A DNA stretch of 64,000 bases from Mesorhizobium loti (lineage in GTDB: Bacteria > Pseudomonadota > Alphaproteobacteria > Rhizobiales > Rhizobiaceae): assembly GCA_002356515.1 (NCBI GenBank), contig AP017607.1, positions 1 through 64,000 of the forward strand, given 5' to 3'. Made by a program: the position numbers and the translations under genes. Below the pieces are notes generated by a model. That model was given only the letters and a program-made list of their open reading frames with translations. It searched no databases and was not told the DNA's origin. Shown here one piece after another: positions 6,873-37,507 of this stretch; within the stretch, counting starts at the first letter, position 1; each line of letters starts with the position of its first letter.

Positions 6873-8072
6873 ATGGACGCGCGCCAATATCAGGACATAC
6901 TCGAAAGACACGACGCCGGAACCGGTATTACCTTCGACAAGGCCGAATACGATAGGCGCGCCGAACTCGTAAAATTCCAAATGGCCGCAAGGGGTATCGA
7001 AACATTGATACTCACGGACCCAAACAGTGTCTATTATATGACGGGATACTATACATTTGGCAGCGGGAACTATGTCTCGCTAATAATCCCAGTTGATGGC
7101 AGTCCGTTCATGCATGTGGCGGACCTTGAGATACCGTCTGCCATCGTTAATTCAAACGTAACGGAAGTCTACACGTCCGTCTGGCAGCAACAGTTCCGGT
7201 CTGGGCCAGGGGACGATTTGGTGAAAGTGCTCCATTCTAAGGTTCAGGATAAGAAGCGAATTGGCCTAGAACTCGGCCGAAAAGGCCTGTTGGCGAGTGT
7301 TTTTCAAGCATTGGCTTCAAAGCTGCCGAATGCGACGTTTATCGACGCCTCGATGATTGTGGAAGAGGTGTCCTACGTCAAATCAGACGTGGAGATCGAA
7401 TGCTTGAAGAAGTCCGGGTTCTACACTGCGGCAGGGGTCGAAGCATCCTATGCCATCACGAGGCCTGGCATCTACGACAATGATATAGCGAAAGCCGGAT
7501 ACGAGGCCATGATTGGCGCCGGTAGCGAATTCATGTCCGTTCAACCCATCGTAACGTCGGGTGTCCGCACAAGTTATCCGCATCAAACTTTTAGAAGAGT
7601 TTTGATTGAGGATAACGACGTGATCTTTCTGGAGTATGGGGGGAACCACAACCGGTATACTGCCCCCTTGATGCGGACGATGGTTACTGGAAAACCGTCT
7701 GATGGCATGATGCGGTTTGCGGATGCAGCGGAAGCGACGCTGTCCGCTATGCTCGAGATGATGAAGCCTGGCGTCGAATTTAGGGATGTCGTCACCCATG
7801 CCAAGAAGGCACATAAGTCGCTAGACGACGAGCTCTACTTTTTTGGGTCCTATGCCTACGGGCTTGGCGCTACGTTTCCCCCGACATGGGGAAACGGCCT
7901 CCATATATCGGAAGGAATTGACCTGGTCCTAAAGCCCGGGATGGCATTCCACGTCCCGATGAATTTCACCGCCCCCAGCAAGTTCGGGATCGCTTTCAGT
8001 GAGTCGGTTGTTATCACTGAAAAGGGCTATGACCTTTTGGTCGATCATCCAAGAGAGCTCCATCGAATTTGA
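6873..8072 (+). CDS. M24-fold hydrolase, creatinase/ectoine-hydrolase-like (copy 1)
   Basis: Cytoplasmic pita-bread-fold protein of 399 residues: N-terminal creatinase domain (about 25-165) and C-terminal M24 domain (about 175-395). The aminopeptidase metal ligands are not kept. The first Asp is Glu254 in FLEYGG, the second is Ala in YTAPLMRT, and the metal His region reads AYGLGATFPPTWG. This pattern fits the non-metal creatinase and DoeA/EutD ectoine-hydrolase branch better than a Xaa-Pro peptidase. It sits downstream of gntR and near an importer and a formylglutamate-type amidohydrolase. The substrate is unknown; an N-substituted or cyclic amino-acid derivative is likely. Two paralogues lie at 27644 and 32064. 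Confidence 0.88.
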   Translation: MDARQYQDILERHDAGTGITFDKAEYDRRAELVKFQMAARGIETLILTDPNSVYYMTGYYTFGSGNYVSLIIPVDGSPFMHVADLEIPSAIVNSNVTEVYTSVWQQQFRSGPGDDLVKVLHSKVQDKKRIGLELGRKGLLASVFQALASKLPNATFIDASMIVEEVSYVKSDVEIECLKKSGFYTAAGVEASYAITRPGIYDNDIAKAGYEAMIGAGSEFMSVQPIVTSGVRTSYPHQTFRRVLIEDNDVIFLEYGGNHNRYTAPLMRTMVTGKPSDGMMRFADAAEATLSAMLEMMKPGVEFRDVVTHAKKAHKSLDDELYFFGSYAYGLGATFPPTWGNGLHISEGIDLVLKPGMAFHVPMNFTAPSKFGIAFSESVVITEKGYDLLVDHPRELHRI

Positions 8073-8080
8073 CCTGAAGT

Positions 8081-8134
8081 ATTCCGAATTGTCTCGGAAT
8101 GCATCGACAAGATAGCTGGGTCATCTTGTCGATG
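8081..8134. terminator. Tandem hairpins after the M24 gene
   Basis: Two perfect inverted repeats follow the stop codon. The first is ATTCCGA/TCGGAAT (8081-8100). The second is a 12-bp stem, CATCGACAAGAT/ATCTTGTCGATG, with a 9-nt loop (8102-8134). No T-run follows, so a Rho-independent terminator is not certain; an mRNA-protecting or protein-binding element is possible. Confidence 0.55.
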
Positions 8135-8484
8135 TGGGACTCGTTTCATCCGTGCAGCGGCGGGACCCAAGGAAATGCGGTTTTCCTCATGTATCCAATC
8201 GCAAAGGGCTCGGCTTTCAGTGAGTGCACCGCGGTCTGCTTTGACGGCGAAGTCCGGCTCACTCGCCCGCAGTGGAAGCTTCTTGAAGTTCCGGCGCGGG
8301 GCTCACCTCCAACGCAACAAGATGGCTCTTTCCCGCGACTGCCGTTTGGCTCGCGCTGCCGATCAATGCCGAAGCTGCAAACCAGCCAAACTGGCCGCAG
8401 GTGGCGCCGAACACCCGTCGCCTGCCACGAGCAAACGTCCACCTGGAAACGTCGGGCCGATGGCGCCGAGTTTGGAGCGCCGAA
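8135..8484. other. Intergenic region, no confident gene
   Basis: This stretch lies between the hairpins and the amidohydrolase. Open frames exist on both strands, including one in frame with the amidohydrolase that reads LFPATAVWLALPI upstream of it. None has a good start context or a family I recognise. It may hold the decayed end of a membrane-protein gene and the promoter of the next operon. Confidence 0.4.
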
Positions 8485-9282
8485 ATGTTGAGCGGCGATG
8501 ACGATCTCCCCTTTGCTGTGTTCAATCCACATGGCAAAGGCGACGTCCTGTTGGTGTGTGAACATGCCAGCGCGGCAATTCCCGGCGTCTTTGCAGACCT
8601 TGGTCTGCAGCGGCACGCTCTGTCCAGTCACATAGCCTGGGATCCCGGTGCCCTCGAGCTTTCTATGCAATTGGCGAAAATGGTCGACGCGAGCTTGTGT
8701 TACCAGCGCTATTCGAGGCTGCTTTACGATTGCAACCGTCCGCCCGAAAGCCCCTCAGCCATCCCCGAGAAGAGCGAAGTTTACGACATTCCGGGCAACA
8801 GACACCTCTCCGCTCGCGAGCGAGACCAGCGCATCGAGACCTTCTATCGCCCCTTCGAACAGGGTCTTTCCGGATTGCTTGAAGCCCGCGGCAAGTCAGG
8901 TAGGCAGACCGTCCTGGTAACGGTTCATAGTTTCACACCCGTCTTTTTCGGCAGAGCACGCGAGGTCGAAGTCGGCATCCTTCACGATGTCGACAGACGG
9001 CTTGCCGATGCGATGCTCGCTCAGGTCGAGAGCCTGGAAGGCCGATTTGTGACCCGCAGGAACGAGCCTTACGGCCCAAAGGACGGTGTCACGCACACGC
9101 TTGTGGAGCATGGCGTCAAAAATGGGCTCCTCAACGTCATGATCGAGGTTCGTAATGATCTTCTACGGTCGCAGGAGGAGATCAATGCGATGGCCGCGTA
9201 TCTCGGCGGGCTGATTTGCAATGGTCCTACTCAGGATTGGGCGTGGCCACGAAAAACAAACCAAACAGGACGTCGACCATGA
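8485..9282 (+). CDS. N-formylglutamate amidohydrolase family protein
   Basis: Cytoplasmic hydrolase of 265 residues in the N-formylglutamate deformylase (FGase, PF05013) family, which releases formate from N-formylglutamate in one histidine-degradation route. Family strings visible are VCEHASAAIP near residue 24, HIAWDPGA, YSRLLYDCNRPPES and TVHSFTPVFFG. I chose the ATG at 8485 with GGAG 7 nt upstream. It overlaps the next gene by 4 nt (ATGA), so it belongs with the aldehyde and alcohol dehydrogenases rather than with histidine-utilisation genes, none of which are nearby. The true acyl-amino acid may differ from formylglutamate. Confidence 0.88.
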   Translation: MLSGDDDLPFAVFNPHGKGDVLLVCEHASAAIPGVFADLGLQRHALSSHIAWDPGALELSMQLAKMVDASLCYQRYSRLLYDCNRPPESPSAIPEKSEVYDIPGNRHLSARERDQRIETFYRPFEQGLSGLLEARGKSGRQTVLVTVHSFTPVFFGRAREVEVGILHDVDRRLADAMLAQVESLEGRFVTRRNEPYGPKDGVTHTLVEHGVKNGLLNVMIEVRNDLLRSQEEINAMAAYLGGLICNGPTQDWAWPRKTNQTGRRP

Positions 9283-10661
9283 CCGTAATAAGATGCATAT
9301 CGCCCGTTGACAGCAGTGTCTACGCCGAGCGCGAAGCCCTGGGCTTCGACGCCGCAAAGGCATTGATTGGCTGTGCTCGAAAGGCGCAAAAGGCTTGGGC
9401 GAGACGCCCGCTGGAAGAGCGCGTGGATTTGGTGATGAAGGGTGTTGCCCGCCTAAACGAGATGGCCGCGGAGGTCATTCCGGAAATCACCTGGCAAATG
9501 GGACGTCCGGTGCGCTACGGGGGCGAGTTCCGTGGCTTCAACGAGCGATCCAACTATGCGGCCTCCATCGCCGCCGACAGCCTCACGCCCTATGTCGTTG
9601 AGGAAAGTGCAGCCTTCGAACGCCGCATCGAGCGGGAGCCGCACGGCGTCGTCTTCGTAATCGCACCATGGAACTACCCCTACATGACGGCGATCAACAC
9701 GGTTGCGCCGGCCTTGATGGCAGGCAACACAGTGGTGATCAAGCATGCCAGCCAGACCCTACTGGTCGGCGAGCGTATGGTGCGCGCCTTTGTCGAAGCG
9801 GGCATTCCCGGTGACGTGTTTATCAATGTCTTCCTCGATCACGACACCACCTCGGCGCTGATTGCAGACAACAATTTCAACTTCATCAACTTCACTGGCT
9901 CGGTTGCCGGTGGCCGCGCCATCGAGCGGGCGGCAGCCGGCACGTTCAATGGCCTCGGCCTTGAACTGGGCGGCAAGGACCCGGGCTATGTTATGGAAGA
10001 CGCCAATCTTGATGCCGCCGTCGACACTCTGATGGATGGCGCCTTCTTCAATTCCGGACAATGCTGCTGCGGCATCGAGCGCATCTATGTGCATGAAAGT
10101 CTGTTCAACAAGTTCGTAGAACAATCGGTGGCCTTCGCCTCCGCCTACAAGCTCGGAAATCCGTTGGAACAGGAAACGACGCTAGGCCCAATGGCCAACA
10201 GGCGTTTTGCCGCTACGGTGCGTGCGCAGGTTTCCGATGCGATCGCCAAGGGCGCGAAGGGCCTGGTCGATCAGAGCCTGTTCCCCGCTGACGATGGCGG
10301 GGCCTATCTGGCCCCGCAGATCCTTATCAATGTTGATCACTCCATGACTGTGATGCGCGAGGAGAGCTTCGGCCCTGTCGTTGGCATCATGAAGGTAGCG
10401 AACGACGCCGAAGCTCTCGAACTGATGAACGACAGCCCCTATGGCCTGACCGCCTCGCTTTGGACGCAGGATACAGAGCGCGCCGCGCGCATCGGCCGCG
10501 ACATCGAGACCGGCACGATCTTCATGAACCGCGCCGATTATCTCGATCCCGCCTTGTGCTGGACCGGCTGCAAGGAAACCGGCAAGGGCGGCTCGCTCTC
10601 GGTCCTAGGGTTCCAGAACCTGACCCGTCCCAAATCCTACCATCTCAAGAAGGCACTCTGA
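9279..10661 (+). CDS. NAD(P)-dependent aldehyde dehydrogenase
   Basis: Cytoplasmic aldehyde dehydrogenase of 460 residues that oxidises an aldehyde to an acid. Visible motifs are APWNYPYMTAINTVAPALMAG (cofactor domain, cut short here), the NFTGSVAGGRAI loop, general-base Glu in LELGGKDPGYV and the nucleophile Cys in NSGQCCCGIER. I chose the ATG at 9279 (AGGA 8 nt upstream), which overlaps the amidohydrolase stop by 4 nt and drops a 21-residue extension. It ends 1 nt before the iron alcohol dehydrogenase start. The pair suggests alcohol to aldehyde to acid oxidation of one carbon skeleton. The exact substrate is unknown. Confidence 0.92.
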   Translation: MTVIRCISPVDSSVYAEREALGFDAAKALIGCARKAQKAWARRPLEERVDLVMKGVARLNEMAAEVIPEITWQMGRPVRYGGEFRGFNERSNYAASIAADSLTPYVVEESAAFERRIEREPHGVVFVIAPWNYPYMTAINTVAPALMAGNTVVIKHASQTLLVGERMVRAFVEAGIPGDVFINVFLDHDTTSALIADNNFNFINFTGSVAGGRAIERAAAGTFNGLGLELGGKDPGYVMEDANLDAAVDTLMDGAFFNSGQCCCGIERIYVHESLFNKFVEQSVAFASAYKLGNPLEQETTLGPMANRRFAATVRAQVSDAIAKGAKGLVDQSLFPADDGGAYLAPQILINVDHSMTVMREESFGPVVGIMKVANDAEALELMNDSPYGLTASLWTQDTERAARIGRDIETGTIFMNRADYLDPALCWTGCKETGKGGSLSVLGFQNLTRPKSYHLKKAL

Positions 10662-10662: not shown

Positions 10663-11808
10663 ATGACGATTACCGCGAACTGGAGCTATCCGACCACTGT
10701 GAAAATGGGCGCCGGACGGATCAAGGAGCTGGCCGATGCCTGCAAGTCTTTGGGCATGAAGAAGCCGCTCCTGATCACCGATCGCGGCCTTGCCGCGATG
10801 CCGATCACGCGCGGTGCGCTGGACGTGCTGGAACAGGCCGGCCTTGGTCGCGCGATCTTCGCCGATGTCGATCCGAACCCAAACGAAATCAACCTCGAAG
10901 CCGGGATCAAGGCCTTCCGTGACGGCGGCCATGACGGCGTCGTCGCTTTCGGCGGCGGCTCAGGCCTCGACCTCGGCAAATGCGTGGCCTTTATGGCAGG
11001 CCAATCGCGGCCCGTCTGGGACTTCGAGGACATTGGCGACTGGTGGACCCGCGCCTCGGTCGAAGGCATTGCGCCAATCGTCGCTGTGCCGACAACCGCC
11101 GGCACGGGCTCTGAAGTCGGGCGCGCCTCGGTGATTACCAATTCGAAGACGCATGTGAAGAAGATCATCTTCCATCCGAAATTCCTGCCCGGCGTCGTAA
11201 TCTGCGATCCGGAACTGACGGTCGGGATGCCGAAGATCATCACTGCCGGCACCGGGATGGATGCCTTTGCGCACTGCCTCGAAGCCTATTCCTCGCCCTT
11301 CTACCATCCGATGAGCCAGGGCATTGCGCTCGAAGGCATGCGGTTAGTGAAGGAATATCTGCCGCGCGCCTATAAGGATGGCACCGATATCGAGGCCCGC
11401 ACCAATATGATGTCTGCCGCTGCAATGGGCGCCGTCGCCTTCCAGAAGGGCCTCGGCGCTATCCACGCGTTGTCGCACCCGATAGGCGCTGTCTACAACA
11501 CGCATCACGGCATGACCAACGCGGTCGTGATGCCCATGGTTTTGAAGTTCAACCGGTCCGCCATCGAAGACAAGATCGTCCGCGCAGCCGCCTATCTCGA
11601 CATTTCTGGCGGCTTTGATGGCTTCTATGACTATGTGCTGTCACTGCGCCACCAACTCGGCGTCCCCGAAAATCTGACCGCTTTCGGCGTTGGCGGCGAC
11701 CGCATCGACGAACTCGCGGCCATGGCCATCGAGGACCCTAGCGCAGGCGGAAACCCGGTGAACCTGACCTTATCCTCGGCAAGAAGGCTATTTGCAGAGT
11801 GCATGTAG
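10663..11808 (+). CDS. Iron-containing alcohol dehydrogenase
   Basis: Cytoplasmic group III (Fe-ADH) alcohol dehydrogenase of 381 residues, the usual length. It has the nucleotide-binding GGGSGLDLGK near residue 98, PTTAGTGSEVGRASV, and metal-binding residues in GTGMDAFAHCLEAYSS and HALSHPIGAVYNTHHG. It is the last gene of the amidohydrolase/ALDH operon, with a junction of 1 nt. It should interconvert an alcohol and an aldehyde with NAD(P)H, feeding the ALDH. A small gene fragment follows in the same frame after the stop. Confidence 0.92.
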   Translation: MTITANWSYPTTVKMGAGRIKELADACKSLGMKKPLLITDRGLAAMPITRGALDVLEQAGLGRAIFADVDPNPNEINLEAGIKAFRDGGHDGVVAFGGGSGLDLGKCVAFMAGQSRPVWDFEDIGDWWTRASVEGIAPIVAVPTTAGTGSEVGRASVITNSKTHVKKIIFHPKFLPGVVICDPELTVGMPKIITAGTGMDAFAHCLEAYSSPFYHPMSQGIALEGMRLVKEYLPRAYKDGTDIEARTNMMSAAAMGAVAFQKGLGAIHALSHPIGAVYNTHHGMTNAVVMPMVLKFNRSAIEDKIVRAAAYLDISGGFDGFYDYVLSLRHQLGVPENLTAFGVGGDRIDELAAMAIEDPSAGGNPVNLTLSSARRLFAECM

Positions 11809-11820: not shown

Positions 11821-11976
11821 AAAGGTTTCAGTCACGTTCGCTTCGTCTACAATTTCACTGAGACGTTCCGGCTCGACACGTATATCGCCCGACATGGATG
11901 CCGGGCGATCGGCGGTAACTTCTGCGCCATGGACAGTGGCGCTGCCATCAAGGCCTCAGCGGAGATCATCGCTTAA
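11821..11976 (+). pseudogene. Short C-terminal gene remnant, family not recognised
   Basis: About 52 codons in one frame without a start, ending at a TAA. It includes the strings HVRFVYNFTETFRLDTYIARHG and GGNFCAMDSGAAIKASAEIIA (second cut to its recognisable part). The composition is protein-like, and the frame begins right after the Fe-ADH stop. It looks like the tail of a larger enzyme brought here by rearrangement. I do not recognise the family. It overlaps the convergent orphan soxG by 21 nt. Confidence 0.4.
11884..11909. promoter_or_regulatory. Stem-loop downstream of the Fe-ADH gene
   Basis: ATCGCCCG and CGGGCGAT form a perfect 8-bp GC-rich stem with a 10-nt loop, 76 nt after the Fe-ADH stop. 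It could end the operon transcript, but there is no T-run and it lies inside the gene remnant, so it may be chance. Confidence 0.3.
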
Positions 11977-12483
11977 ATGAGCAATCTCGTCCCATAGGCT
12001 CTGACCAAAGCCGCGCAGTACGACTAGCTCGAATCGATCCACTGCGCAGCGGGTCATGTGCATTGGGATATGTCCCATCATCGTCATCGCGCACTGGCCC
12101 ACAGCCATGCCCTCGAAATCGACGGCTGTACCCTTTGCCAGCACCCACGTGACCGCGCGGCCCAAGACTTCGATGCGGATGCGTCCATGGGTTTGATCCA
12201 CCGCAAATGCGTGTGAAGCGAGCTTTTCAAACTCTGCCTGGAGGTCGACGTGAGACACCGGCTCATCCCTGACGACGAGCCATTGGCCGGGGCCGAAGGT
12301 GCGGATCCTGTTGGCCTCGCCGCCGAACAGACCTTGTAGCATTGCCGTGAGATCCTCGCTCCCGGGCTCGCCGAGGATGTGGATCAAGTTGCCCTCGGGC
12401 ATCGCCTTCATGGCGAAGGCGTCGGAGCCCTGCACTGGTTCGGTGCTGATCGCAGGACGGTGGACGAGATCGAAATCAGACAT
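11956..12483 (-). CDS. soxG: Orphan sarcosine oxidase gamma subunit (SoxG), partial operon duplicate
   Basis: 175-residue SoxG-family protein, nearly identical over most of its length to SoxG of the complete operon at 42077-42589 (shared FGPGQWLVVRDEP, TMMGHI, VLRGFGQSLWDE). The C-terminus differs (HLSDDLR in place of LF), so the copy was resected there too. Just upstream at 12476-12506 the last codons of soxA survive (DPANEKLHV then stop) with the same 8-nt soxA/soxG overlap. The rest of soxA, soxD and soxB are missing. Gamma has no known activity without alpha and beta, so this is probably a non-functional relic, unless it is expressed from elsewhere. Confidence 0.85.
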   Translation of the reverse strand: MSDFDLVHRPAISTEPVQGSDAFAMKAMPEGNLIHILGEPGSEDLTAMLQGLFGGEANRIRTFGPGQWLVVRDEPVSHVDLQAEFEKLASHAFAVDQTHGRIRIEVLGRAVTWVLAKGTAVDFEGMAVGQCAMTMMGHIPMHMTRCAVDRFELVVLRGFGQSLWDEIAHLSDDLR

Positions 12484-12503
12484 GGAGCTTCTCGTTTGCT
12501 GGA

Positions 12504-13256
12504 TCGACCGAGGTTGGACGGCTGCTCATGCGCCAGTGCTCGGACCAGATCAAGAAGGTCAGCCTCGAGCTCGGCGGCAATGCACCTTTCATCGTCTTCG
12601 ACGATGCAGACGTCGATGCTGCAGTCGACGGGGCGATCCAGGCCAAGTTCCGCAACGCCGGCCAGACATGCGTATCCGCGAACCGCCTCTACGTCCAATC
12701 TAACGTTCACGATGAATTTGTCGACAAATTCGTCGAGCGGGTTCGCCAGCTACAGGTTGGCGACGGTTTCGATCCTGATGTCGCCGTCGGCCCGCTGATC
12801 GACAAGTATGCGCTCACCAAGATCGAATCGCATATCGCCGATGCTGTCGCTAAAGGCGGCACAATTCGGTGCGGGGGCAAACGCATTGGCAAGGACGGCA
12901 CGTTCTTCCAACCGACGGTCCTCACTGAAGTCTCCAGCGAGATGACGATTGCGCAGGAGGAGACATTCGGGCCGCTCGCCCCAACCATTCGCTTCGACGA
13001 TGCGGATCAGGTCGTGCACGAGGCAAATGATACGATCTACGGCCTTGCCGCCTACTTCTATGCCTCGAACCTGCACCGCGTCTGGCGTGTGGCCGAGGCC
13101 CTGGAATACGGCATGGTGGGCATCAACACGGGACGCATGTCATCGGAAGCCGCGCCCTTCGGTGGGGTAAAGCGATCCGGCATCGGGCGGGAGGGTTCGC
13201 GCCATGGGCTCGAGGACTACCTTGAAATGAAATACCTCTGCATGGGTGGCATCTGA
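12504..13256 (+). pseudogene. Truncated succinate-semialdehyde dehydrogenase-like gene (C-terminal half)
   Basis: About 250 codons of a GabD-type aldehyde dehydrogenase. It begins abruptly at GSTEVGRLLMRQCSDQIKK and keeps the Glu in LELGGNAPF, the Cys in NAGQTCVSANR and the C-terminal APFGGVKRSGIGREG. The N-terminal half, including most of the cofactor-binding fold, is absent. The 5' edge falls exactly where the antisense soxA tail ends, at a shared GGATCGA. It is a deletion or recombination remnant, very unlikely to be active. Confidence 0.88.
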
Positions 13257-17027: not shown

Positions 17028-18212
17028 TCAGATTATCGAAAGTTCCCTAGCTGCCGCCGCAAACGCCGCCACCGCACGATCGATATCGGCGCTGGAATGC
17101 GCCGCCGACATTTGCGTGCGGATGCGCGCCTGGCCCTTCGGCACCACCGGGAAGGAAAAGCCAATGACATAGATGCCGCGCTTCAGCATGCGCGCCGCCA
17201 TCTCCTGCGCCAGTGTCGCCTCGCCCAGCATCACCGGAATGATCGGATGGTCGGCACCGGCCAGCGTAAAGCCAAGCTTGCCCATTTCAGACCTGAACCG
17301 CGCCGCATTGGCATAGAGGCGCTCGCGCAGGACGTCGCCATTGCGGATCAGATCGAACACCTTGATCGAGGCGCCGGCGATCGCCGGCATCAGCGTGTTG
17401 GAGAAGAGATAGGGCCGCGAGCGCTGGCGCAGCCAGTCGACCACCTGGCTCTTGCCTGAGGTGTAGCCGCCGGAAGCGCCGCCAAGCGCCTTGCCGAGCG
17501 TGCCGGTGATGATGTCGACCCTGCCCTCGACGCCGCAATGCTCGGCCGAACCTCGGCCATTTTTGCCGACGAAGCCGACCGCATGGCTGTCGTCGACCAT
17601 GACCATCGCATCGTATTTGTCGGCAAGGTCGCAGACGCCTTTCAGGTTGGCGATGATGCCGTCCATGGAGAACACGCCGTCGGTGGCGATCAGCCGGAAG
17701 CGGCAATCCTTGGCCTCCTTCAGCCGGGCTTCGAGATCGGCCATGTCGTTGTTGGCGTAGCGGAAGCGCTTTGCCTTCGACAGCCTGACGCCGTCGATGA
17801 TCGAGGCATGGTTCAGCGCGTCCGAGATGATGGCGTCCTCCTCGCCGAGCAGCGTCTCGAACAGACCGCCATTGGCGTCGAAACAGGAGCCGTAAAGGAT
17901 GGTGTCGTCCATACCGAGGAAGGACGAAATCGTGGCCTCGAGCTCCTTGTGCTCTTCCTGCGTGCCGCAGATGAAGCGCACCGAAGCCATGCCGTAGCCA
18001 TAGCGGTCGAGCGCGCCTTTGGCTGCGGTGCGCAATTCGGGGCTGTCGGCAAGGCCGAGATAGTTGTTGGCGCAGAAGTTCAGAACCTTGTCGCCGCCGA
18101 CCTCGATCTCGGCCGACTGCGTCGAGGTGATGACCCGTTCGGATTTGTAGAGCCCGGCGGATTTCAGGCCCGTGAGTTCGCTCGAGAGATGAGAAATGAA
18201 GGCGTCAGTCAT
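17028..18212 (-). CDS. kbl: Glycine C-acetyltransferase (2-amino-3-ketobutyrate CoA ligase)
   Basis: PLP enzyme of 394 residues (E. coli Kbl has 398) that interconverts glycine plus acetyl-CoA with 2-amino-3-ketobutyrate, the second step of threonine breakdown. It has the alpha-oxoamine synthase fold, with [15 protein letters not shown] near residue 45, [16 protein letters not shown] and the PLP lysine in [18 protein letters not shown]. The ATG at 18212 gives the family N-terminus; the 39-residue upstream extension looks non-coding. Codon use is strongly GC-ending, unlike the neighbours. The usual partner tdh is missing, so here it may act on glycine, for example from sarcosine oxidation. That link is inferred. 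Confidence 0.93.
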
Positions 18213-20022: not shown

Positions 20023-20410
20023 CTTTACCCTAGAGGCGAAAGCACGATTACGCAAAGCGATTCGAAACGCCCGTTGCAAGATCGGACGCGCAATGAAACG
20101 GTAACCCATTCGAATGGTGCCACTGTTGCAATTGTCGGCGGAAATGCGACCGTTTCGTTTCACGCAAAGTTCAAAATCGCCGAAACTATTCCAAATTAGG
20201 GCATTCTGCACATGGTATTCACCGCGGCCCTAAGTCGGCCGCCAGACGTCGCTGAAGCGAGTCAGCATGCACTCAGTCGACTAGCTTTATCACCTGGCCG
20301 ACGAGGTCGCGGCTTGGCGGGCATCTGAGACCGGTAATTTCTCTGGGGTCGCATACAGTTTTGTTAGGCCCGCGTAGTCCGTGAGCGTCGCCTTGTTCGG
20401 AGGGAAAGTG
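20023..20410. other. Intergenic region before the IS remnant
   Basis: 388 bp containing the lrp-type gene promoter side and the left edge of the decayed insertion sequence. No inverted-repeat terminus was found with confidence. Confidence 0.35.
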
Positions 20411-26585: not shown

Positions 26586-27132
26586 CCTGAAACCGCTCAT
26601 GGCGCTAGGTGCCGAAAAGCCTCGTTCCGCATCGTTTGCAACGTTGGAGATTCGTGAGAACGAGAATCTGGCGCTTGCCTCTCTTGCGCTACGCAGGGTA
26701 GCCGTTGAGCCTCAGCCGTTCGGTTTGAATTTGCCGGGGCCGGGCTGCTGGGTAGCAGATCAGGAAGTGGCAGCCTTCTGGACTGGACCGGGTCAGTGGA
26801 TGGTTGAGGCCGAAGGCCGCGCCGAAGACGACTTTGCCGCAGATCTGAAAGAGGCCGCCCGCGGCTGCTCGGTGACCGAGCAAACTGGTGGGTGGGTTGC
26901 TGTCGAAATTTTATCTCGGGCCGGCACAGGTCCCCTCGACGCATTGCTGGCGAAGCTAATCAACATCGATCTTGCGGATTTCGGTCCTGGCCGCGCGACG
27001 CGTACAGTCCTTGACCACATGACCTGTTTCGTAATCCGCCGCAGCGAAACCCATGTCGCCGTGCTTGGCGCGCGCTCGTTTGGCGCTTCGCTCTGGCACA
27101 CGCTAGAAATTGCCTCAAGGAGGATAGAGTAA
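26578..27132 (+). CDS. soxG: Sarcosine oxidase gamma subunit, operon 1
   Basis: 184-residue SoxG family protein. I chose the GTG at 26578 with AAGGAG 9 nt upstream; it overlaps the soxA stop by 8 nt, exactly as in operon 2. Family strings are WTGPGQWMVEAEG, EQTGGWVAVEI and a C-terminal GARSFGASLWHTLE. It is much more diverged from the two other SoxG copies in the window than those are from each other, so operon 1 was not the source of the orphan at 11956. Last gene of soxBDAG. Confidence 0.88.
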   Translation: MANLKPLMALGAEKPRSASFATLEIRENENLALASLALRRVAVEPQPFGLNLPGPGCWVADQEVAAFWTGPGQWMVEAEGRAEDDFAADLKEAARGCSVTEQTGGWVAVEILSRAGTGPLDALLAKLINIDLADFGPGRATRTVLDHMTCFVIRRSETHVAVLGARSFGASLWHTLEIASRRIE

Positions 27133-27643: not shown

Positions 27644-28804
27644 GTGACTGAGGCAGCGAATAACAGGATGGATTTCCCATTCGAGGAGTATCGTGCACGG
27701 TTGAACCGTACGCAGGAGGAAATGGCGAAGTACGATCTTCCTGTCCTATTGCTGCACCAACCAGAAAACATCAACTATCTTACCGGTTTGGATGACGTTA
27801 TGTACGTCTCCTATCTTGCCTTAGTTGTTCCTAGCCGCGGAAACCCGGTGCTTGTCATTCGCGACATGGAAGTTCCGGCAGCACAAAACACCTCGTGGAT
27901 CAAAGACTGCGTGGTATATCCAGATGCTGCTATCGATCCGCTCCGTGTTTCTCTCGACGCAGCACACAAGGCCCTACATGGCCTAGGTTTGGCGGGCGGA
28001 CGGATTGGTCTGGATGACCACTCGTGGTTCTTGACCGCAGAACGTTGGAAAATGCTTCAAACGGTGCTGCCTCATGCAAATTTAGTCGCAGAACCGCTGA
28101 TTGTCGACCACCTCCGCCTCATCAAGTCACAGCGGGAAATAGATTATCTACGTGGCGCTGCTCGCAGCGTTGACGCGGGGATGCGAGTGGGTCTTGATGC
28201 GATCAAGGGCGGCGTGTCGGAGCGAGAGCTGGCTGTCGCAGTCTATAGCGAATTGACACGCGCTTGCACACAGGTGCCAGACGGCTGTCAAATCACCTCT
28301 GGTGATCGAACAAATCTCATACACGGGTGGTCCACTGACCGACGCTTGGAACGCGGCGATCCTGTTTATTTTGAGCTCAACGGAATTCACAAAGGATACT
28401 GGGCGCGCTTGATGCGTACTGCGGTCGTGGGTCCCGCGACTGCGCATCAGCGCCATATAGCGGAGAAAATCATCGGCATTCAAGACGAGGCCATCGCGCT
28501 GATGCGCCCGGGCGTACCGGCCAGCGTAGTCGATCAAGCTTGTCGCGAACCGATCTTAGCGGCGGGTCTTCGCCAGACCTACACCAACCGTACTGGCTAT
28601 TCGCTGGGGCTCAATCAACGGCCCTCCACCGCCGAATTGATCCGAGACTTCCTGCCGGATGTGAAATGGGTGCTGCAGCCCGGAATGGTGTTCCATATGG
28701 TGGCGATCGCCGGCGGCATGGGTTTCAGCGAGACTGTGCTGGTAACGGAGGATGGGCCTGAACGCCTGACGGGCTTGGACCGTAGACTTTTTGAGAGCGC
28801 CTGA
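27644..28804 (+). CDS. M24-fold hydrolase, creatinase/ectoine-hydrolase-like (copy 2)
   Basis: 386 residues from a GTG with GGAG 9 nt upstream. N-terminal creatinase domain (ENINYLTGLDDVMYVSYLAL near 41) and C-terminal M24 fold. The metal ligands of aminopeptidase P are replaced: Glu244 in YFELNG in place of Asp, Arg in YWARLMRT in place of the second Asp, TGYSLGLNQRP in place of the His loop, and HMVAIAGG in place of the first Glu motif. Like copies 1 and 3, it fits the metal-free creatinase/DoeA branch. Only 21 nt separate it from the C26 hydrolase, a two-gene unit just downstream of sarcosine oxidase operon 1. It may release sarcosine or another amino acid; unproven. Confidence 0.87.
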   Translation: MTEAANNRMDFPFEEYRARLNRTQEEMAKYDLPVLLLHQPENINYLTGLDDVMYVSYLALVVPSRGNPVLVIRDMEVPAAQNTSWIKDCVVYPDAAIDPLRVSLDAAHKALHGLGLAGGRIGLDDHSWFLTAERWKMLQTVLPHANLVAEPLIVDHLRLIKSQREIDYLRGAARSVDAGMRVGLDAIKGGVSERELAVAVYSELTRACTQVPDGCQITSGDRTNLIHGWSTDRRLERGDPVYFELNGIHKGYWARLMRTAVVGPATAHQRHIAEKIIGIQDEAIALMRPGVPASVVDQACREPILAAGLRQTYTNRTGYSLGLNQRPSTAELIRDFLPDVKWVLQPGMVFHMVAIAGGMGFSETVLVTEDGPERLTGLDRRLFESA

Positions 28805-28825: not shown

Positions 28826-29545
28826 ATGCGACCACTCGTTGGAATTGTCAGCAACTTTGAAGTCGAGAAGAAGGGTTACTTTTGCTTAGAAAATTATGTT
28901 CGTGCGATCGAGCAATCCGGAGCGCTTCCAATCATCCTTCCTTATGTTAGTGAAGGCGATGTTGGGCAGTTGCTCGACACGTTGTCGGGAATTGTTCTGT
29001 CGGGCGGTGGGGACTTTCCAACCGAGTTGTACGGTGCGGATCCACACCCAACTGTACAGCGAATGATCCCCGAGCGTGATCGATTCGAATTCGCTCTCGC
29101 CCGGGCAGCGTTTGAACGACCGGTGCCGGTACTAGGTATTTGCCGTGGCATGCAGATACTGAATGTTGTCGCGGGAGGAACTATCTATCCCCATACTCAG
29201 GCAGCTCTCCCTGAAGTCGGCGACCATCGTGATGGGACCCCGCTTGAACAGACAGTCCATGGGATCAACATTGAACCAAATACATACCTGTCGAGACTTG
29301 TCGAAAGCCAAAATTTGTCATTCCGGGTCAACAGCTCGCATCACCAGGCTATTGACATGCTGGCACCTGGTTTCGTCGTTTCGGCACGAGCTGACGATGG
29401 GATCGTCGAGGCAATCGAGGCGCCGGATCGGCCCTTTGTCGTCGGTGTGCAGTGGCATCCAGAGGCGATGTTCGACAGTGAGCCTGCGTGCCGATCACTG
29501 ATTCAGAACTTCGCCAAAGCTTGCGGGGTCAAGTCACACCCATAG
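28826..29545 (+). CDS. Gamma-glutamyl hydrolase family protein (peptidase C26, PuuD-like)
   Basis: Cytoplasmic class I glutamine-amidotransferase-fold hydrolase of 239 residues. The nucleophile Cys is in LGICRGMQILNV near residue 110 and the catalytic His-x-Glu in VGVQWHPEAM near 212. The oxyanion loop is GIVLSGGGDFPTELYG. PuuD cleaves gamma-glutamyl-GABA and relatives; the C26 set also acts on other gamma-glutamyl amides. It is paired with the M24 gene. The combination suggests that the M24 product, or a gamma-glutamylated amine linked to sarcosine or methylamine metabolism, is its substrate; this is inference. Confidence 0.9.
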   Translation: MRPLVGIVSNFEVEKKGYFCLENYVRAIEQSGALPIILPYVSEGDVGQLLDTLSGIVLSGGGDFPTELYGADPHPTVQRMIPERDRFEFALARAAFERPVPVLGICRGMQILNVVAGGTIYPHTQAALPEVGDHRDGTPLEQTVHGINIEPNTYLSRLVESQNLSFRVNSSHHQAIDMLAPGFVVSARADDGIVEAIEAPDRPFVVGVQWHPEAMFDSEPACRSLIQNFAKACGVKSHP

Positions 29546-32063: not shown

Positions 32064-33218
32064 TCAGTAATTTACCAGGAGGTCGCGTGACATGTTGCTC
32101 AGCGACCTCGCACCGTTCTCGGTGACGCGGACAGTCTCACTGAAGATGTATCCGTCATGCTTCTCCCAAATGCCGACAAGGACATGAAAGGTCATGTTAG
32201 GTTCGATAACGGTGTGATCGTCGGGATTGAAGCTGAGATCAGAACCCCAGTCGATACCAGTGGAGTAACCGCTCCTGGACTCTTTACGTACGCCATAGGG
32301 TTCGAACGCCCGCTGAAACGCAGCCGAAACATCGGAGCACTTCACTCCTGGCCGAATTGCGTCGAACTCCGCGAGGAAGCCGTCCAGCGCCGCTCGATGT
32401 AAGTGCTGCGCGCGCGCGCTCGGCTCACCCAAAAAGATCGTCCTTGACAAGGCACAGACGTAACGGTGTCGGAATGCACCAATCTCAAAATTGGTCTGAC
32501 AACCCATCTTGTAGCTGGCATCAGACCACTTGAGATGGGGTGCATTGGCTGGGGAGCCCACCGGCATCGTAAGAGCACCATAGCAAGGCCCGCCAGGAAA
32601 TTCTGGGGTCCCTTTAATGAGAGCACTTTGTACGGCGGCAGCTACGTCACACTCACGCGCGCCCACAGCAATCTCAAGCCGGCCAGCTTGCAAGGCCCTA
32701 TCTGCAATCTTCCCAGCCTGTTCCATGAAGGCGAGTTCAGCTGGCGACTTTACTCGTTGCAACGTGGCAATCATGCCGTCGGCATCGATGGCGTTCGACA
32801 TGTCCAAATTGTTGGCAAGCGCGGCATAAGCTTTCGTCCCAAGTATTTTGGCCCCCATTTCAACGCCGATTCGATTGGACTTAGAACGCTCCTTGATTAG
32901 ATCGGCTATCGGTTCCCATGGCGTGCGCTTGCTCGAACCAATGTATCTTTCCGGGTAACTCAGGATGCGCGATTCCGGCAGATACGATGTCTGATATGCG
33001 CAAAGCGTATCGATCTCTCGCAGGATCAGCCACGGATCTTCTTCATCTTGACATACAAGAGCAAGTTGCGGAACATAGTCGGAATACCCTTCATACCCTG
33101 TATGATAGTTAATATTTGACTCATTGAGTATAAGCATTGCGTCGACGCCACGATCCGTCATCTGCTGACGAAGTCGTTTGGCTCGTTCACGATATTCCTG
33201 CTGACTGAATGCGGGCAT
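32064..33218 (-). CDS. M24-fold hydrolase, creatinase/ectoine-hydrolase-like (copy 3)
   Basis: 384 residues from ATG 33218 with AGGAGA 6 nt upstream. It has an N-terminal creatinase domain (LNESNINYHTGYEGYSDYVP near 31) and a C-terminal M24 fold. The metal ligands are lost: Glu245 in NFEIGAF, Cys in YVCALSRTIFLG where the second Asp should be, and SGYSTGIDWGSDLSF in place of the metal His loop. The motif set FEIG/RT-FLG/GYS-G/FH-L-GIW is the most DoeA-like of the three copies. It lies 308 nt downstream of the amino acid ABC genes on the same strand, with the M20 amidohydrolase at the operon's other end. The substrate is unknown. Confidence 0.88.
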   Translation of the reverse strand: MPAFSQQEYRERAKRLRQQMTDRGVDAMLILNESNINYHTGYEGYSDYVPQLALVCQDEEDPWLILREIDTLCAYQTSYLPESRILSYPERYIGSSKRTPWEPIADLIKERSKSNRIGVEMGAKILGTKAYAALANNLDMSNAIDADGMIATLQRVKSPAELAFMEQAGKIADRALQAGRLEIAVGARECDVAAAVQSALIKGTPEFPGGPCYGALTMPVGSPANAPHLKWSDASYKMGCQTNFEIGAFRHRYVCALSRTIFLGEPSARAQHLHRAALDGFLAEFDAIRPGVKCSDVSAAFQRAFEPYGVRKESRSGYSTGIDWGSDLSFNPDDHTVIEPNMTFHVLVGIWEKHDGYIFSETVRVTENGARSLSNMSRDLLVNY

Positions 33219-33526
33219 ATGGGATCTCCTATTTTGGCAATTAGGTTTGGACAGCAAGCTCATTTGTTTATGATCAATCGAGTGGCTTTATAAATTCGAT
33301 TTGCTTCTTTGTTGCCAAATAATTGGTCTAATTGCATTTTGATACTGGCCTATCTCGATACCGTAACCTGTACTAAAACCTCAAGCTTTTGAATTTTGTA
33401 CAGGCCAACTTTTGGATTAGGCATCGGCAGACAATCAGTGTGAGCTTCTGTTGCAACGCCATTGGAGAATGAGGCACTGCAGTTAGCCGTGCTCTTCGTG
33501 TGCCCGTTTTCAAACCACCGATAGAT
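33219..33526. other. Intergenic region upstream of M24 copy 3
   Basis: 308 bp, AT-rich compared with its surroundings and without a gene. It probably holds a promoter for the M24 gene, so that gene may not depend only on read-through from the ABC operon. No clear palindrome was found. Confidence 0.4.
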
Positions 33527-34393
33527 CTAGTGCGACAAGATTTGGCTCAGGAATAGCTTGGTCCGTTCGTGCTGGGGGTTGGTGAAGAAGTCGTTCGGTT
33601 TGCCCTCCTCCACGATGTGGCCCAAATCCATAAAAATAACTCTGTCGGCGACTGCGCGAGCGAAGCCCATCTCATGGGTGACGCAGACCATGGTCATGCC
33701 ATCGCGCGCTAAACTCGTCATGGTTTCCAGCACTTCCGAAACCATCTCCGGATCGAGTGCCGAGGTCGGTTCGTCAAACAGCATAACCGCGGGCTCCATG
33801 CACAGCGAACGGGCAATGGCAACACGCTGCTGCTGTCCGCCGGACAGCTGAACGGGGTATTTGTTCGCCTGTTCTGGGATACGCACGCGCTCTAGGAACT
33901 TTAACGCGGTCCTCTTGGCCTCGGCTTCGCGCACTCCCTTGATCCACATTGGACCCGCCATGCAGTTCATCAGCACGGTCATATGGGGAAAGAGATTGAA
34001 GTGCTGGAACACCATCCCAACATTCTTGCGAACTTCAGTCACGTCGCGCATTTTGTTGTGCAATCTGATCCCGTTGACGGTGATCTCGCCCTCTTGGTGC
34101 GCTTCGAGTCGGTTGAAGCAGCGGATTAGCGTCGACTTCCCGGACCCCGAGGGGCCACAGATAACGATGCGTTCGCCTTTGCGGACGGTTAGATTGACAT
34201 CAGTCAATGCTTTGAAGGTGCCGTACCATTTGGAGACGTTCGTCGCTTCGATAATTTTCTCCGCACTCATTTGCACCGGCTTCTGACTGGAAGACTCCTG
34301 GGATGAAAGTGCCGCGCGCCGCATACTGCCAATCGCTTGCGAGGAATCGCTTACATCATGGCCTTTCAAGTGACTTATCTTGCTAGCAGTCAT
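33527..34393 (-). CDS. Polar amino acid ABC transporter ATPase (GlnQ-like)
   Basis: 288-residue cytoplasmic ATPase of the polar amino acid uptake (PAAT) family. Walker [10 protein letters not shown] near residue 80, Q-loop [14 protein letters not shown], signature LSGGQQQR, Walker [15 protein letters not shown], switch His in VTHEMGFAR. The first ~42 residues are an extra, low-conservation extension; an internal ATG ([17 protein letters not shown]) could be the true start. It overlaps the permease gene by 4 nt (ATGA). It energises the adjoining permease and binding protein. Confidence 0.93.
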
Positions 34394-35364
34394 CGCACTT
34401 TACTCCTTGCGAGGTGGCGCTCTAGCCGTGATTGAGCCACTTCGAGGCAGGCAGACATGATCCAATAGATCATTGCCGCCGTGATCAGCATCTCCATATG
34501 ATGGAAGGTCGGCTGCCCGATTGTACGCGCCAGAAATGTCAGCTCCCACACGCCGAGGACCGAAACGAGTGAGCTGTCTTTCAGCATTGCGATGAACGTG
34601 TTTCCCATGGGTGGAATGATGACGGGCAGCGCCTGCGGCAGGATGATCCTGCGCATGGTAAGACCGAAGCCGAAGCCGATGGAACGCGACGCTTCCCATT
34701 GGCCACGGTCGATGCTCTGGATACCGGCGCGGAAAATTTCCGTCATATAGGCGCCGACGCAAAGCGACAATGCCAATATGCCGGAAGGAACGGCATTGAT
34801 CACGATACCCAGCTGCGGCAGCCCTAAATATATCAGGTAAATCTGTATGAGAAGCGGCAGACCTCGGAAAAACGAGGTGTAAAAACTGGCAATGGCATAC
34901 GCGAAGCCATTGCTCGAAAGCTTTGCTATCGCTGCGATGATCGCTATAAATGATGCGAAAATAAGTGAAACTGCCGAAACATAGATCGTGGTGACTACAC
35001 CCTGCGTAATCAGGTAGGGGAGATTCTCCCAGATGAACGGCATGCTTAGGTTAAATGCTTTGAAGAAGGCAAGAAACAGCAGCAGCAGTTCGACCCATAC
35101 AATTGCAATCTGCGCCTTCAAGGGGGCAAACCCGATCAGCACTATATTGAGGCAGAACATCACTGCGATCACAAAGGCGATTGCGGCACGTCCATAGAGG
35201 CCGCTCTGGAGCGGATCGCCGATCACCGGTCGCATAAGCTCACCGAAGGTGGTGCCCGCTAGGTTGAACATGAAAAAAACCGCGAGCACGACGCCGAAGA
35301 TCGAGGCAACAAACCAAGGCCTGTGGACAAGTACCTCGGATTCGACTGTATCCTGGTAAAGCAT
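34390..35364 (-). CDS. Polar amino acid ABC transporter permease
   Basis: 324-residue inner-membrane permease. Two extra N-terminal helices (about 17-35 and 58-80) and one near 90 precede a standard HisM/GlnP domain, with [20 protein letters not shown], the [14 protein letters not shown] loop and the EAA-loop string [23 protein letters not shown] 35364 is supported by AGGAGG just upstream. Only one permease is present, so it probably works as a homodimer. Neighbours are the binding protein upstream and the ATPase downstream. Confidence 0.92.
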
Positions 35365-35381
35365 GAGATATCCTCCTACAA

Positions 35382-35407
35382 GGCGGCTCGGTCTGAACCG
35401 AGCCGCC
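35382..35407. promoter_or_regulatory. Perfect hairpin between binding-protein and permease genes
   Basis: GGCGGCTCGGT and ACCGAGCCGCC form an 11-bp perfect stem with a CTGA tetraloop. It lies in the 59-nt spacer between the binding-protein stop and the permease start, just ahead of the AGGAGG site. There is no T-run. As in many amino acid ABC operons, it likely stabilises the binding-protein message or limits read-through. Confidence 0.75.
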
Positions 35408-35423
35408 AAACTTGACGAAGCTA

Positions 35424-36257
35424 CTACTTGTCGACGGTGAAATCCGATCCGTACCATTTCATAGAAATCTTCGACAGCGTGCCGTCATCCTTCATGCCTT
35501 TGATGGCGGCGGCTACCTTATCACTAAACTCCTTGTCGCCCTTCATCATAGGAATAGCGGCGGGGGAGGACATGAGCGCACCGAGCACCTTAAACGGATA
35601 TCCCGATTTGATCGCGGTTTCCACAAAGGGTCCGCTCGTAATCACAGCGTTCAGACGGGCGCCATCGCCTAAACGCAGATCGTCAAAGGCAACATTGGCG
35701 TTCGCGTACGATTTGACCTGACCGGCTTTGAATTTGTATTCGATCGGCTTCGCGCCAACCCAGTTTGGCGTTAGTTTTTGATTGGCGTACTGCTCTTCGG
35801 TCGTATTGGTAGTAACGCCAATAATTGCCCCATTCAGGTCTGAAAGATCTTTCGCTTTACTATCCTTATGCACCACCGCAACCGTCGTATCGTAGTAGTA
35901 ATTCGGTGAAAAATCGAACTTCTCACCACGTTCTTTTGTTGGGGTCATTTGGCCCATGCCAATGTCCCAACGGCCTTGCCAATTGCCTGCCACTATAAGG
36001 TCCCAGCCTGGCGTTACAAATTCAACGTTCACACCGAGGTATTTCGCAATCCCCTTGGCCACATCAATGTCATATCCCTCCAACTCGTGGTTCGCATTCA
36101 GGGAAGATATTGGACCCCAATCGGTGCCTACAGCAACTTTGATCGTCTTAGCATCGAGGACGCGCTGAAGTACCTCTCCGGCATACGCCGAGGGGCTGGA
36201 CGCAATCGCCGCAGTAGCTATTGACACAGCTGTGATGATTGTCTTGATCTTATTCAT
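35424..36257 (-). CDS. Amino acid ABC transporter periplasmic binding protein
   Basis: 277-residue SBP_bac_3 family protein. A Sec signal peptide (about 1-26, ending PSAYAG) is followed by the typical start IKVAVGTDWGPISSLN, YDIDVAKGIAKYLGVNVEFV and GRWDIGMGQMTPTKERGEKFDFS. It binds a polar or cyclic amino-acid-like ligand in the periplasm for the downstream permease. The family also includes EhuB for ectoine, interesting beside a DoeA-like M24 protein, but the sequence alone does not establish that ligand. Confidence 0.92.
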   Translation of the reverse strand: MNKIKTIITAVSIATAAIASSPSAYAGEVLQRVLDAKTIKVAVGTDWGPISSLNANHELEGYDIDVAKGIAKYLGVNVEFVTPGWDLIVAGNWQGRWDIGMGQMTPTKERGEKFDFSPNYYYDTTVAVVHKDSKAKDLSDLNGAIIGVTTNTTEEQYANQKLTPNWVGAKPIEYKFKAGQVKSYANANVAFDDLRLGDGARLNAVITSGPFVETAIKSGYPFKVLGALMSSPAAIPMMKGDKEFSDKVAAAIKGMKDDGTLSKISMKWYGSDFTVDK

Positions 36258-36316
36258 AGTACATTCCCCTATTCAGGTTGGTTAGACTTCCTTTGTACGA
36301 CACTCTATCGTACCTC

Positions 36317-37507
36317 TCATTCAGAGCCGCTGGCTTTTGCCAGCTGCGGACTCAGAATTGTTTCGACCAGGTTGACCCAGTAGCCGATGCCGTACGGCAA
36401 CGCTTCGTCATTGAAATCATAGGCGGGATCGTGCACGTATGCTGTCGGGCCGTTTCCAAGCCGTATGTAAGCTCCCGGACACGCTTCAAGCATGTAGGCA
36501 AAGTCTTCTGATCCCATCGAAGGTCTCGCGTTCGAATCTACTGCTTCGTGCCCGACTAGACCTCGAGCGGCAGACACGGCAAAATTAGTCCCTTCCGCGT
36601 GGTTGAACATGAGTGGCTCAAGGCGACGGTGGGTAAACTCGATTTCAGCATCGAAACCCGAAGCGATACCTTCAGCGCATGACCTGATGTGCTTCTCCGC
36701 AAAGTCGCGCAGAGTGGATTTGAGGGTGCGAACGGTTCCCGATATTTGTACAAAGTCGGGGATGACGTTATATGCCGTCCCAGCATTCAGCTTTGTGACC
36801 GATATCACGAGTGCTTCTTGGGAGTCGGTTTTGCGAGACACTAATGTTTGGAGTCCGATGATGATTTGAGCCGCGATGACGATGGGATCGTTGGTCAGAT
36901 GCGGTTTAGCCGCATGACCGCCCTTGCCTTTTACGATGATGTCAAACTCATCGAGCGCCGATGAGATCGCCCCATCGCAGATTGCGAATTCTCCGACTGC
37001 CATGCCTGGCCAATTGTGCATGCTAAAGATTTGGGAGATTCCAAACCGGTCCATGATCCCTTCTTGGACCATTGTGAGAGCGCCACGGCCATCTTCTTCT
37101 GCAGGCTGAAATATAAGGGCTACCACCCCTTTAAAATTCCGCGTGGCGGCCAGGTACTTCGCGGCGCCCAGCAGCATCGCCGTATGACCGTCATGGCCGC
37201 ATCCATGCATAAGGCCCGGAATTTCCGAAGCCCAAGGTTTGTTTGATGCCTCAGGTATCGGGAGAGCATCCATGTCTGCTCGCAGTCCAATGGTAGGACC
37301 TTCTCCCAGCTCGCCTTGGATCAAGGCGACGATTCCAGTCTCTGCTATACCCGTTTCGATATTATTGATGCCAAATGACGCCAGCTTTTTAGTAACGAAA
37401 TTGGCTGTGTTGTATAGCTTGTAATTCAGCTCCGGACGCCTGTGGAGATAGTGGCGCCACTCTGTTGCCTCGTTCTTTAGATCCTGGAATTCTTCGATGC
37501 GATGCAT
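36317..37507 (-). CDS. M20 family amidohydrolase (aminoacylase/hippurate-hydrolase type)
   Basis: 396-residue metal-dependent amidohydrolase that removes an acyl group from an N-acyl amino acid or related amide. Metal ligands are visible in GLMHGCGHDGHTAM near residue 100, QPAEEDGRGA near 135 and MHNWPG near 163; the dimerisation domain begins at IIVKGKGGHAAKPH. The catalytic His region near the C-terminus is GSEDFAYML. It lies 59 nt upstream of the ABC binding protein on the same strand, so import and deacylation are likely co-expressed. The acyl and amino parts are unknown. Confidence 0.91.
   Translation of the reverse strand: MHRIEEFQDLKNEATEWRHYLHRRPELNYKLYNTANFVTKKLASFGINNIETGIAETGIVALIQGELGEGPTIGLRADMDALPIPEASNKPWASEIPGLMHGCGHDGHTAMLLGAAKYLAATRNFKGVVALIFQPAEEDGRGALTMVQEGIMDRFGISQIFSMHNWPGMAVGEFAICDGAISSALDEFDIIVKGKGGHAAKPHLTNDPIVIAAQIIIGLQTLVSRKTDSQEALVISVTKLNAGTAYNVIPDFVQISGTVRTLKSTLRDFAEKHIRSCAEGIASGFDAEIEFTHRRLEPLMFNHAEGTNFAVSAARGLVGHEAVDSNARPSMGSEDFAYMLEACPGAYIRLGNGPTAYVHDPAYDFNDEALPYGIGYWVNLVETILSPQLAKASGSE

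Follow-up and report, generated by a model that had tools for sequence, protein, structure and literature searches.

The first 64,000 bases of contig AP017607.1 of Mesorhizobium loti (hereafter the window; the contig spans 220,869 bases in a genome of 8.45 Mb) carry three genes for M24-family hydrolases, each near a different second amide hydrolase. This raises the question of what bonds such proteins cut and whether these neighbours are their partners. The genes are M24#1 (6873..8072, + strand), M24#2 (27644..28804, +) and M24#3 (32064..33263, −), and the second hydrolases are, respectively, a formylglutamate-type amidohydrolase (FGase family, PF05013), a C26-type gamma-glutamyl hydrolase and an M20 amidohydrolase. 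We find that all three M24 proteins lack the metal ligands of the aminopeptidases, that they are EutD-like and fall into three clades, and that an M24-C26-MmgE/PrpD gene order is the best-supported of the three pairings, being conserved in five lineages.

All three M24 proteins are intact, score 100.5, 116.5 and 94.2 bits (M24#1, #2 and #3) against PF00557 (cut-off 23) and carry a Creatinase_N domain. Five ligand columns were set on the P. furiosus prolidase, in which these residues bind the metal, in an alignment with EutD and prolidase. None of the three has the canonical M24 metallopeptidase set of two Asp, one His and two Glu: in M24#1, #2 and #3, respectively, the first Asp is Glu throughout, the second is Pro, Arg or Ala, the His is Tyr throughout, the first Glu is Pro, a gap or Val, or Leu, and the second Glu is Ser throughout, in the same manner as in EutD. 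The catalytic His is retained (H237, H227 and H243), and the marker residues read H237, E254, P266, Y329 and H360 in M24#1, H227, E244, R255, Y319 and H351 in M24#2, and H243, E260, Y333 and H360 in M24#3. The initial annotation, which described all three as stripped of the aminopeptidase metal ligands and the metal His as replaced, is borne out by this alignment. Its Asp-to-Glu positions 254 and 244 are correct, and the 245 given for M24#3 is E260 of the listed open reading frame of 399 amino acids (245 if the start lies 15 codons later). Loss of the second Asp was rightly called, as was the Arg of M24#2, and the Ala and Cys named for M24#1 and M24#3 are one position off (Pro266, and the Ala that follows the Cys).

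The same replacements recur in other alphaproteobacterial genomes. Group A comprised 80 of the 89 EutD-like matches listed at 309.5 bits or above in Alphaproteobacteria outside the source genome, with at most four candidates scored per genome; nine were left out because they lay near contig ends, contained stop codons or shared a stretch with another locus, or were dropped by choice. In this score-chosen group the first ligand is Glu or Gln in 80/80 and the His is Tyr in 80/80, and the metal-type control loci (group C, 40 of 52 rows from a metal-type M24 query) kept D, D, H, E and E in 40/40. Group B (40 of 57 lower rows listed), tried as a canonical M24 control, turned out to consist mostly of another metal-less clade, in which Arg occupies the catalytic His column in 35/40 (L138-L157, L178-L197 and L019); it was kept and group C was added. 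A second metal-type query matched in one of 142 genomes, the source genome itself, and yielded no usable control set. Among 116 dereplicated EutD-like proteins, a collection that also takes in loci picked as near relatives of the window genes, Tyr replaces the metal His in 116 and Glu the first ligand in 113, both counts being so by construction or nearly so, since proteins were selected on the Tyr column and, with E, Q or C accepted, almost on the Glu column; 113 of the proteins carry the 'FH' His and 106 the catalytic His. The source genome itself has 24 PF00557 matches, and among the 23 aligned (one fragment was excluded) 14 lack the ligands, eight have all five and one is neither. Genes of this type are named 'Xaa-Pro peptidase family protein' in the annotated plasmid records that were opened, a name that presupposes a metal and a peptide as substrate; if our reading is true, a large rhizobial group would instead be openers of small-molecule rings or amides.

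A EutD-type pattern had been proposed for the trio, and both sequence and fold support it. EutD is the best match in a PDB sequence search for all three (E values of 2.1e-37, 5.3e-33 and 3.6e-57). Predicted models of M24#2 and M24#1 (mean predicted local distance difference test scores of 92.2 and 88.3) place EutD first by fold, at template-modelling (TM) scores of 0.90 and 0.89, followed by creatinase (0.80-0.84) and prolidases; M24#3 is placed as EutD-nearest by sequence alone. The NCBIfam DoeA models align over nearly the whole length of the three proteins, yet the scores against the two DoeA/ectoine-hydrolase models (153.6, 151.0 and 277.6 bits against a cut-off of 613; 206.5, 199.1 and 129.9 against 575) stay far below those cut-offs.

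In a tree of the 116 proteins, M24#1, #2 and #3 sit in three separate clades (the tree is quick and uses a simple model, and joins near the relatives of M24#1 were flagged for long branches). Two Arg, R73 and R316 in M24#2 numbering, are conserved in 109/116 and 104/116 and are both present in EutD. M24#1 has Ala (A83) and Ser (S326) at these sites, and the three remaining proteins of its clade likewise lack the first Arg. As two otherwise conserved arginines, which may be substrate contacts, are lost, M24#1 is suggested to take a different kind of substrate.

The second hydrolase of M24#2 is the C26 protein (28826..29545, +), 21 nt downstream (28804 to 28826) as first noted. It scores 203 bits against Pfam C26 and has the GICRG and QWHPE motifs of the PuuD/C26 gamma-glutamyl hydrolases intact. 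It differs from these in reaching 129 bits against a PuuD cut-off of 266 and in having M24 and sarcosine-oxidase genes as neighbours. A heterotetrameric sarcosine-oxidase type enzyme (SoxB, SoxD, SoxA and SoxG; 22107..27132, +) ends 0.5 kb upstream of M24#2. An MmgE/PrpD family protein (37571..38947, −), whose closest solved structure by sequence is iminodisuccinate epimerase, lies further along.

The M24-C26-MmgE/PrpD order was found in five lineages of Mesorhizobium and Bradyrhizobium, spanning 51-97% M24 identity and with differing flanks. At 97% it is present on the source chromosome (L025) and in L160 and L164/L198; at lower identity it recurs in L167/L204 (73%), in Bradyrhizobium sp. CCBAU 51627 (L202, 65%), in L174/L205 (58%) and in L163 of genome G404 (51%). 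G404 is probably M. japonicum MAFF303099, as plasmid pMLa and the second contig of G404 correspond in position. The C26 identities of these lineages are, in the same order, 95, 76, 70, 64 and 68%. SoxBDAG is linked in three of the five (97, 73 and 58%), with varying gene order, so that the claimed nearness to sarcosine oxidases stands for the C26 module. A more distant C26-M24 neighbour pair lies on S. meliloti pHRC017. The module can also lie close to nitrogen-fixation genes: nifH is at C1:5374373 of the source genome, the chromosomal M24 group (5.428-5.527 Mb) is 53-152 kb off, and the distances of the C26 module from nifH are 53 kb (source chromosome), 44 kb (G009) and 300 kb (G404). Near this nifH, at 5.43-5.53 Mb, seven M24 genes lie within 100 kb, two of which (915-2051 of L027 and 9549-10685 of L028) encode proteins identical over 378 amino acids. 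If the reading holds, the M24-C26-MmgE block, with Sox genes in three of five lineages, would point to a root- or nodule-linked nutrient. A search confined to one open-access library found no paper on an M24/C26/MmgE/Sox pairing.

Several observations weigh against a fixed module. The conserved M24#2-C26 pair holds across the five lineages, though M24#2-type genes (55-73% identity) without C26 in the stretch are about as common as those with it: L027 (two), L028, L051/L203, L158, L159 (two), L162, L165/L201, L166/L199, L177/L200 and L206, several being copies of one another. In the window the MmgE/PrpD gene is 8 kb from C26 and on the opposite strand, and block transfer of mobile islands may account for part of the conserved order. 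In two lineages the nif link breaks down: in G420 the C26 copy lies megabases from nifH, the copy at 43 kb being an M24#2 type without C26, and G013 has no nifH above the cut-off. On the window contig nifH has no match. The tie to symbiosis regions is thus real in some lineages only. More widely, 55 of the 80 group A loci have no adjoining second amide hydrolase, C26 was scored as adjacent in 1/80 of group A (a GATase-like protein, L110) and 1/40 of group B, and the C26 label by itself is not clearly clustered on the tree (57/500 shuffles were as low).

A partner was counted when a gene for EutE, M20, C26, FGase, C45, a serine hydrolase, an amidohydrolase or DUF2817 lay on the same strand within 450 nt of the M24 gene. 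Stretches shorter than 12 kb through contig ends numbered 17/80 in group A, 7/40 in group B and 12/40 in group C. Among the matches listed, a second amide hydrolase adjoins the M24 gene in 25/80 of group A, 1/40 of group B and 0/40 of group C (Fisher test, A versus B plus C, P=1e-7, a value that is indicative because the loci lack independence and contig ends cut some stretches short, in C more often than in A). The partners in group A are EutE (16), M20 (8) and C26 (1, the GATase-like protein of L110), with no other family; A versus C by family gave P=0.0012 for EutE and 0.051 for M20. The proposed family of two-step modules therefore survives as a genuine tendency, for which EutE and M20 account: together they make up 24 of the 25 pairs, and both were already linked to ectoine breakdown. 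As a rule it fails for the unpaired majority. Counted by region, 23 hold EutE and 10 hold M20, with one (L062) holding both.

No dominant second hydrolase emerged from a Pfam scan of 78 immediate neighbours at group A loci without EutE or M20 (87 neighbours were listed and nine of 180 amino acids or fewer excluded). Within the 25 most matched of the 92 families, LysR domains (5), DctP (5) and Rieske (3) came first, with two each of fumarylacetoacetate (FAA) hydrolase, metallo-beta-lactamase and DUF2817. As a class-wide partner MmgE/PrpD was rejected, being present at 1/80 loci and adjoining at 0/80; it does neighbour M24 genes of the rhizobial M24#2-type group and of some relatives.

On the tree of 116 proteins the partner labels are EutE 17, M20 9, C26 7, serine hydrolase 2, FGase, C45, amidohydrolase and DUF2817 one each, and none 77; two of the seven C26 labels are other class-I glutamine amidotransferases (GATases), resembling the C-terminal part of CTP synthase. 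At 26, the number of label changes required lies below the mean of 37.4 for shuffled labels, and 0/200 shuffles were as low; the starred branches force at least six changes for M20, six for EutE and five for C26. The family of the second hydrolase has thus changed repeatedly among EutD-like M24s. One clade mixes L036, L111, L112 and L117, which have M20, with L082, L083 and L089, which have EutE; such alternation within a clade is as expected of exchangeable second enzymes.

Two further arrangements were noted among the loci opened. In L228, L229 and L231, all on rhizobial plasmids, the M24 gene is followed by a DUF2817 protein, with M20, prolyl oligopeptidase and dipeptide ABC genes upstream. 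In L054, L055 and L110 (Shinella and Agrobacterium fabrum among them), M20, a mandelate-racemase-family gene and M24 stand in a row, with a GATase-domain protein after or near them.

M24#3 shares its strand with the M20 gene (36317..37507, −) as had been stated, with three amino-acid ABC importer genes (ATPase, permease and binding protein; 33527..36257, −) between the two. The usual catalytic motifs, on which hydrolysis in the C26 and M20 families depends, are present in both the C26 and the M20 proteins of the window. The closest solved structures to M20 are YxeP and IAA-amino acid hydrolase, and its score of 325.8 bits against the DoeB2 model is below the cut-off. A set of AsnC, class IV aminotransferase, KBL, amino-acid ABC, M20 and M24 genes turns up again in S. 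americanum (L051) and in S. fredii (L230), where the M24s belong to another clade than M24#3; in the window the regulator (Lrp/AsnC, 19567..20211), the aminotransferase (18278..19237) and KBL (glycine C-acetyltransferase, 17028..18212, above its equivalog cut-off) are also on the − strand. Seven loci with M20 homologs of 66-74% identity (L051, L052 and L228-L232), taken from the top rows of 580 matching plasmid records or already among the loci studied, were opened, and an M24 lies within 12 kb in six of them. A fixed pairing of M24#3 with M20 was rejected, as no M20 lies in the stretch of M24#3 orthologs of at least 64% identity (L025/L026, L160, L164, L168, L169 and the broken L170). The pairing suggested for M24#3 is therefore best read as a shared, recurrent gene set, with close orthologs of M24#3 lacking M20. 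In L170 (G044:C24:76640-77870) the M24#3 homolog is broken by stop codons.

M20 as a second hydrolase is not new: NCBIfam DoeB2 is matched by the window M20 and by the M20 of L036. H. elongata DoeA is described as a creatinase-like M24 protein and its DoeB as a relative of M14-type deacylases (PMC3187862), a methanotroph doeB mutant accumulates N-alpha-acetyl-diaminobutyrate, its DoeB being 22% identical to H. elongata DoeB (PMC7192451), and Bacillota clusters without eutE hold abgB (PMC13188858). From that 22% identity and the model name, the methylotroph DoeB is probably of the M20 type. The DoeB2 model, the doeB mutant and abgB together leave no novelty in the role of M20 itself. DoeA with DoeB2 (NF038259/NF038260), methylotroph doeBDAC and Bacillota abgB-eutD resemble the window in pairing an M24 with an M20-type acylase, and differ in that three transporter genes part M24#3 from M20 and neither protein reaches the model cut-offs.

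M24#1 is followed at 412 nt (8072 to 8485) by the FGase gene (8485..9282, +; start set by analogy with the RefSeq annotation of a 98% identical homolog), an aldehyde dehydrogenase gene (ALDH; 9279..10661, +) and an iron-containing alcohol dehydrogenase gene (FeADH; 10663..11808, +). The M24#1-FGase pair is present in three loci only: the window, plasmid MesoLj131b3 (99%) and G419 (M24 94%, FGase 74%), where FGase varies more than its neighbours. M24#1 itself is 99.2% identical to a protein on the plasmid of Mesorhizobium sp. 131-2-5. Among 139 plasmid records matched by FGase, one was the near-identical locus with M24; three other loci were opened. Two of them (L226 on Aminobacter plasmid pMET3 and L227 on an R. 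leguminosarum plasmid) hold FGase homologs of 55-56% identity in FGase-glutamine synthetase-ALDH-FeADH cassettes without M24, with ALDH at 77-78% and FeADH at 82-85% identity to the window's and, in R. leguminosarum, an amino acid permease gene in between; the third FGase homolog lies beside ethanolamine ammonia-lyase genes. The steadier companions of FGase are thus the two dehydrogenases. A general M24-FGase module was rejected, since FGase was found in 0/80 class loci and the three homolog loci opened had no M24 within about 8 kb; the M24#1-FGase pairing once claimed is confined to loci of 94-100% M24 identity, FGase elsewhere keeping company with ALDH/FeADH. The cassette on pMET3 (7992-16756 of L226) directly precedes bhcRABC.

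The window is a composite: 12508-42044 (29.5 kb, with M24#2, M24#3, C26, M20 and MmgE) is an insert that interrupts the M24#1 locus at soxG. Compared with plasmid MesoLj131b3, bases 3079-12507 and 42045-48471 of the window are contiguous there, with about 570 bases around soxG in common. This soxG region is doubled in the window, the copies (11942..12507, − and 42045..42610, −) being 87% identical and one at each end of the insert, the outcome expected from a crossover at soxG, which may have been the mechanism. A second sarcosine-oxidase type operon (SoxG, SoxA and SoxB) lies at 42077..47092 (−). The insertion, together with the three clades, weakens the earlier view of the three M24s as one module family in one neighbourhood. 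The insert holds, close to its left end (12528-13256), a short ALDH-like open reading frame of 242 amino acids, probably a truncated gene.

What the trio does is then best weighed against the readings that compete with it. That all three are ordinary ectoine or hydroxyectoine hydrolases, or recent paralogs still opening ectoine, is improbable. It gains from EutD being the closest solved structure, from DoeA models that match over nearly the full length, and from the DoeB2 match of M20. It is opposed by scores far below the curated ectoine-hydrolase cut-offs, by another M24 with an adjoining EutE on the source chromosome (L035, inside a EutE-rich clade) and by the loss in M24#1 of the two arginines that EutD keeps; no EutE was found in the window, and eutABC and ectoine transporters were not systematically searched for. 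It is equally improbable that M24#2 is a creatinase-type amidinohydrolase that feeds the adjoining sarcosine oxidase, with C26 incidental. The M24 fold and SoxBDAG at 0.5 kb, linked in other lineages too, recall creatinase followed by sarcosine oxidase, and creatinase stands next after EutD by fold for M24#2 (TM 0.81-0.84), yet EutD is nearer by sequence profile (208 versus 125 bits, with prolidases between) as well as by fold, and C26 and MmgE are conserved beside M24#2, genes for which we know of no role in creatine breakdown.

A rather unlikely reading overall is that chance alone brought these genes together in mobile DNA and that the second hydrolases serve other pathways. The insert with its soxG region duplicated at both joints, two loci with FGase homologs beside ALDH/FeADH and without M24, and close M24#3 orthologs without M20 all fit it; the M24-C26-MmgE order that survives to 51% M24 identity despite differing flanks, and the adjacency excess of 25/80 against 1/80 in the controls, do not. 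For FGase alone, chance juxtaposition is the likelier reading. Taken together, these considerations make it probable that the three M24s are metal-free carbon-nitrogen hydrolases of the EutD kind from three clades, each likely the first cutter of its own accessory catabolic cluster. M24#2 would act on an imported amino-acid derivative, opening or clipping an amide or amidine bond in it, and C26 would cut a second amide, probably of the gamma-glutamyl type. MmgE/PrpD would serve as an epimerase or dehydratase at the carboxylate-bearing centre, and the secondary or N-methyl amine so formed would be oxidised by SoxBDAG. M24#3 may work in a set with the M20 acylase, the amino-acid importer, the class IV aminotransferase and KBL. 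For M24#1 a substrate of another kind is most likely, and it would feed ALDH and FeADH.

What is new here, best for the C26 case, would be a variant of the EutD-EutE kind of two-hydrolase module. Like EutD/DoeA with EutE/DoeB, it couples a metal-less M24 with a second amide hydrolase, shows the same ligand replacements and has EutD as its nearest fold; unlike that system, the window partners are C26, M20 or FGase, EutE is missing from the window and the scores fall far short of the cut-offs. A broader and unlikely reading is that a mobile rhizobial pathway, partly in nif-bearing chromosomal regions, degrades a secondary-amine amino acid, similar to an opine or rhizopine, that occurs in masked form as a lactam or gamma-glutamyl amide: M24#2, as the metal-free step, and C26 would unmask it, the iminodisuccinate-epimerase-like MmgE/PrpD would set a stereocentre and SoxBDAG would cleave the amine, with EutD-like hydrolases as a general metal-free opening step that has exchangeable partners (EutE, M20, C26, and in single cases a serine hydrolase, C45, DUF2817 or an amidohydrolase). 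Its odds are reduced by the nif link, which fails in some lineages.

At the left end of the window, genes for an ABC importer (ATPase, two permeases and binding protein; 636..5829, −) run divergently from M24#1, and a GntR-family regulator gene (6110..6796, +) lies upstream of it.

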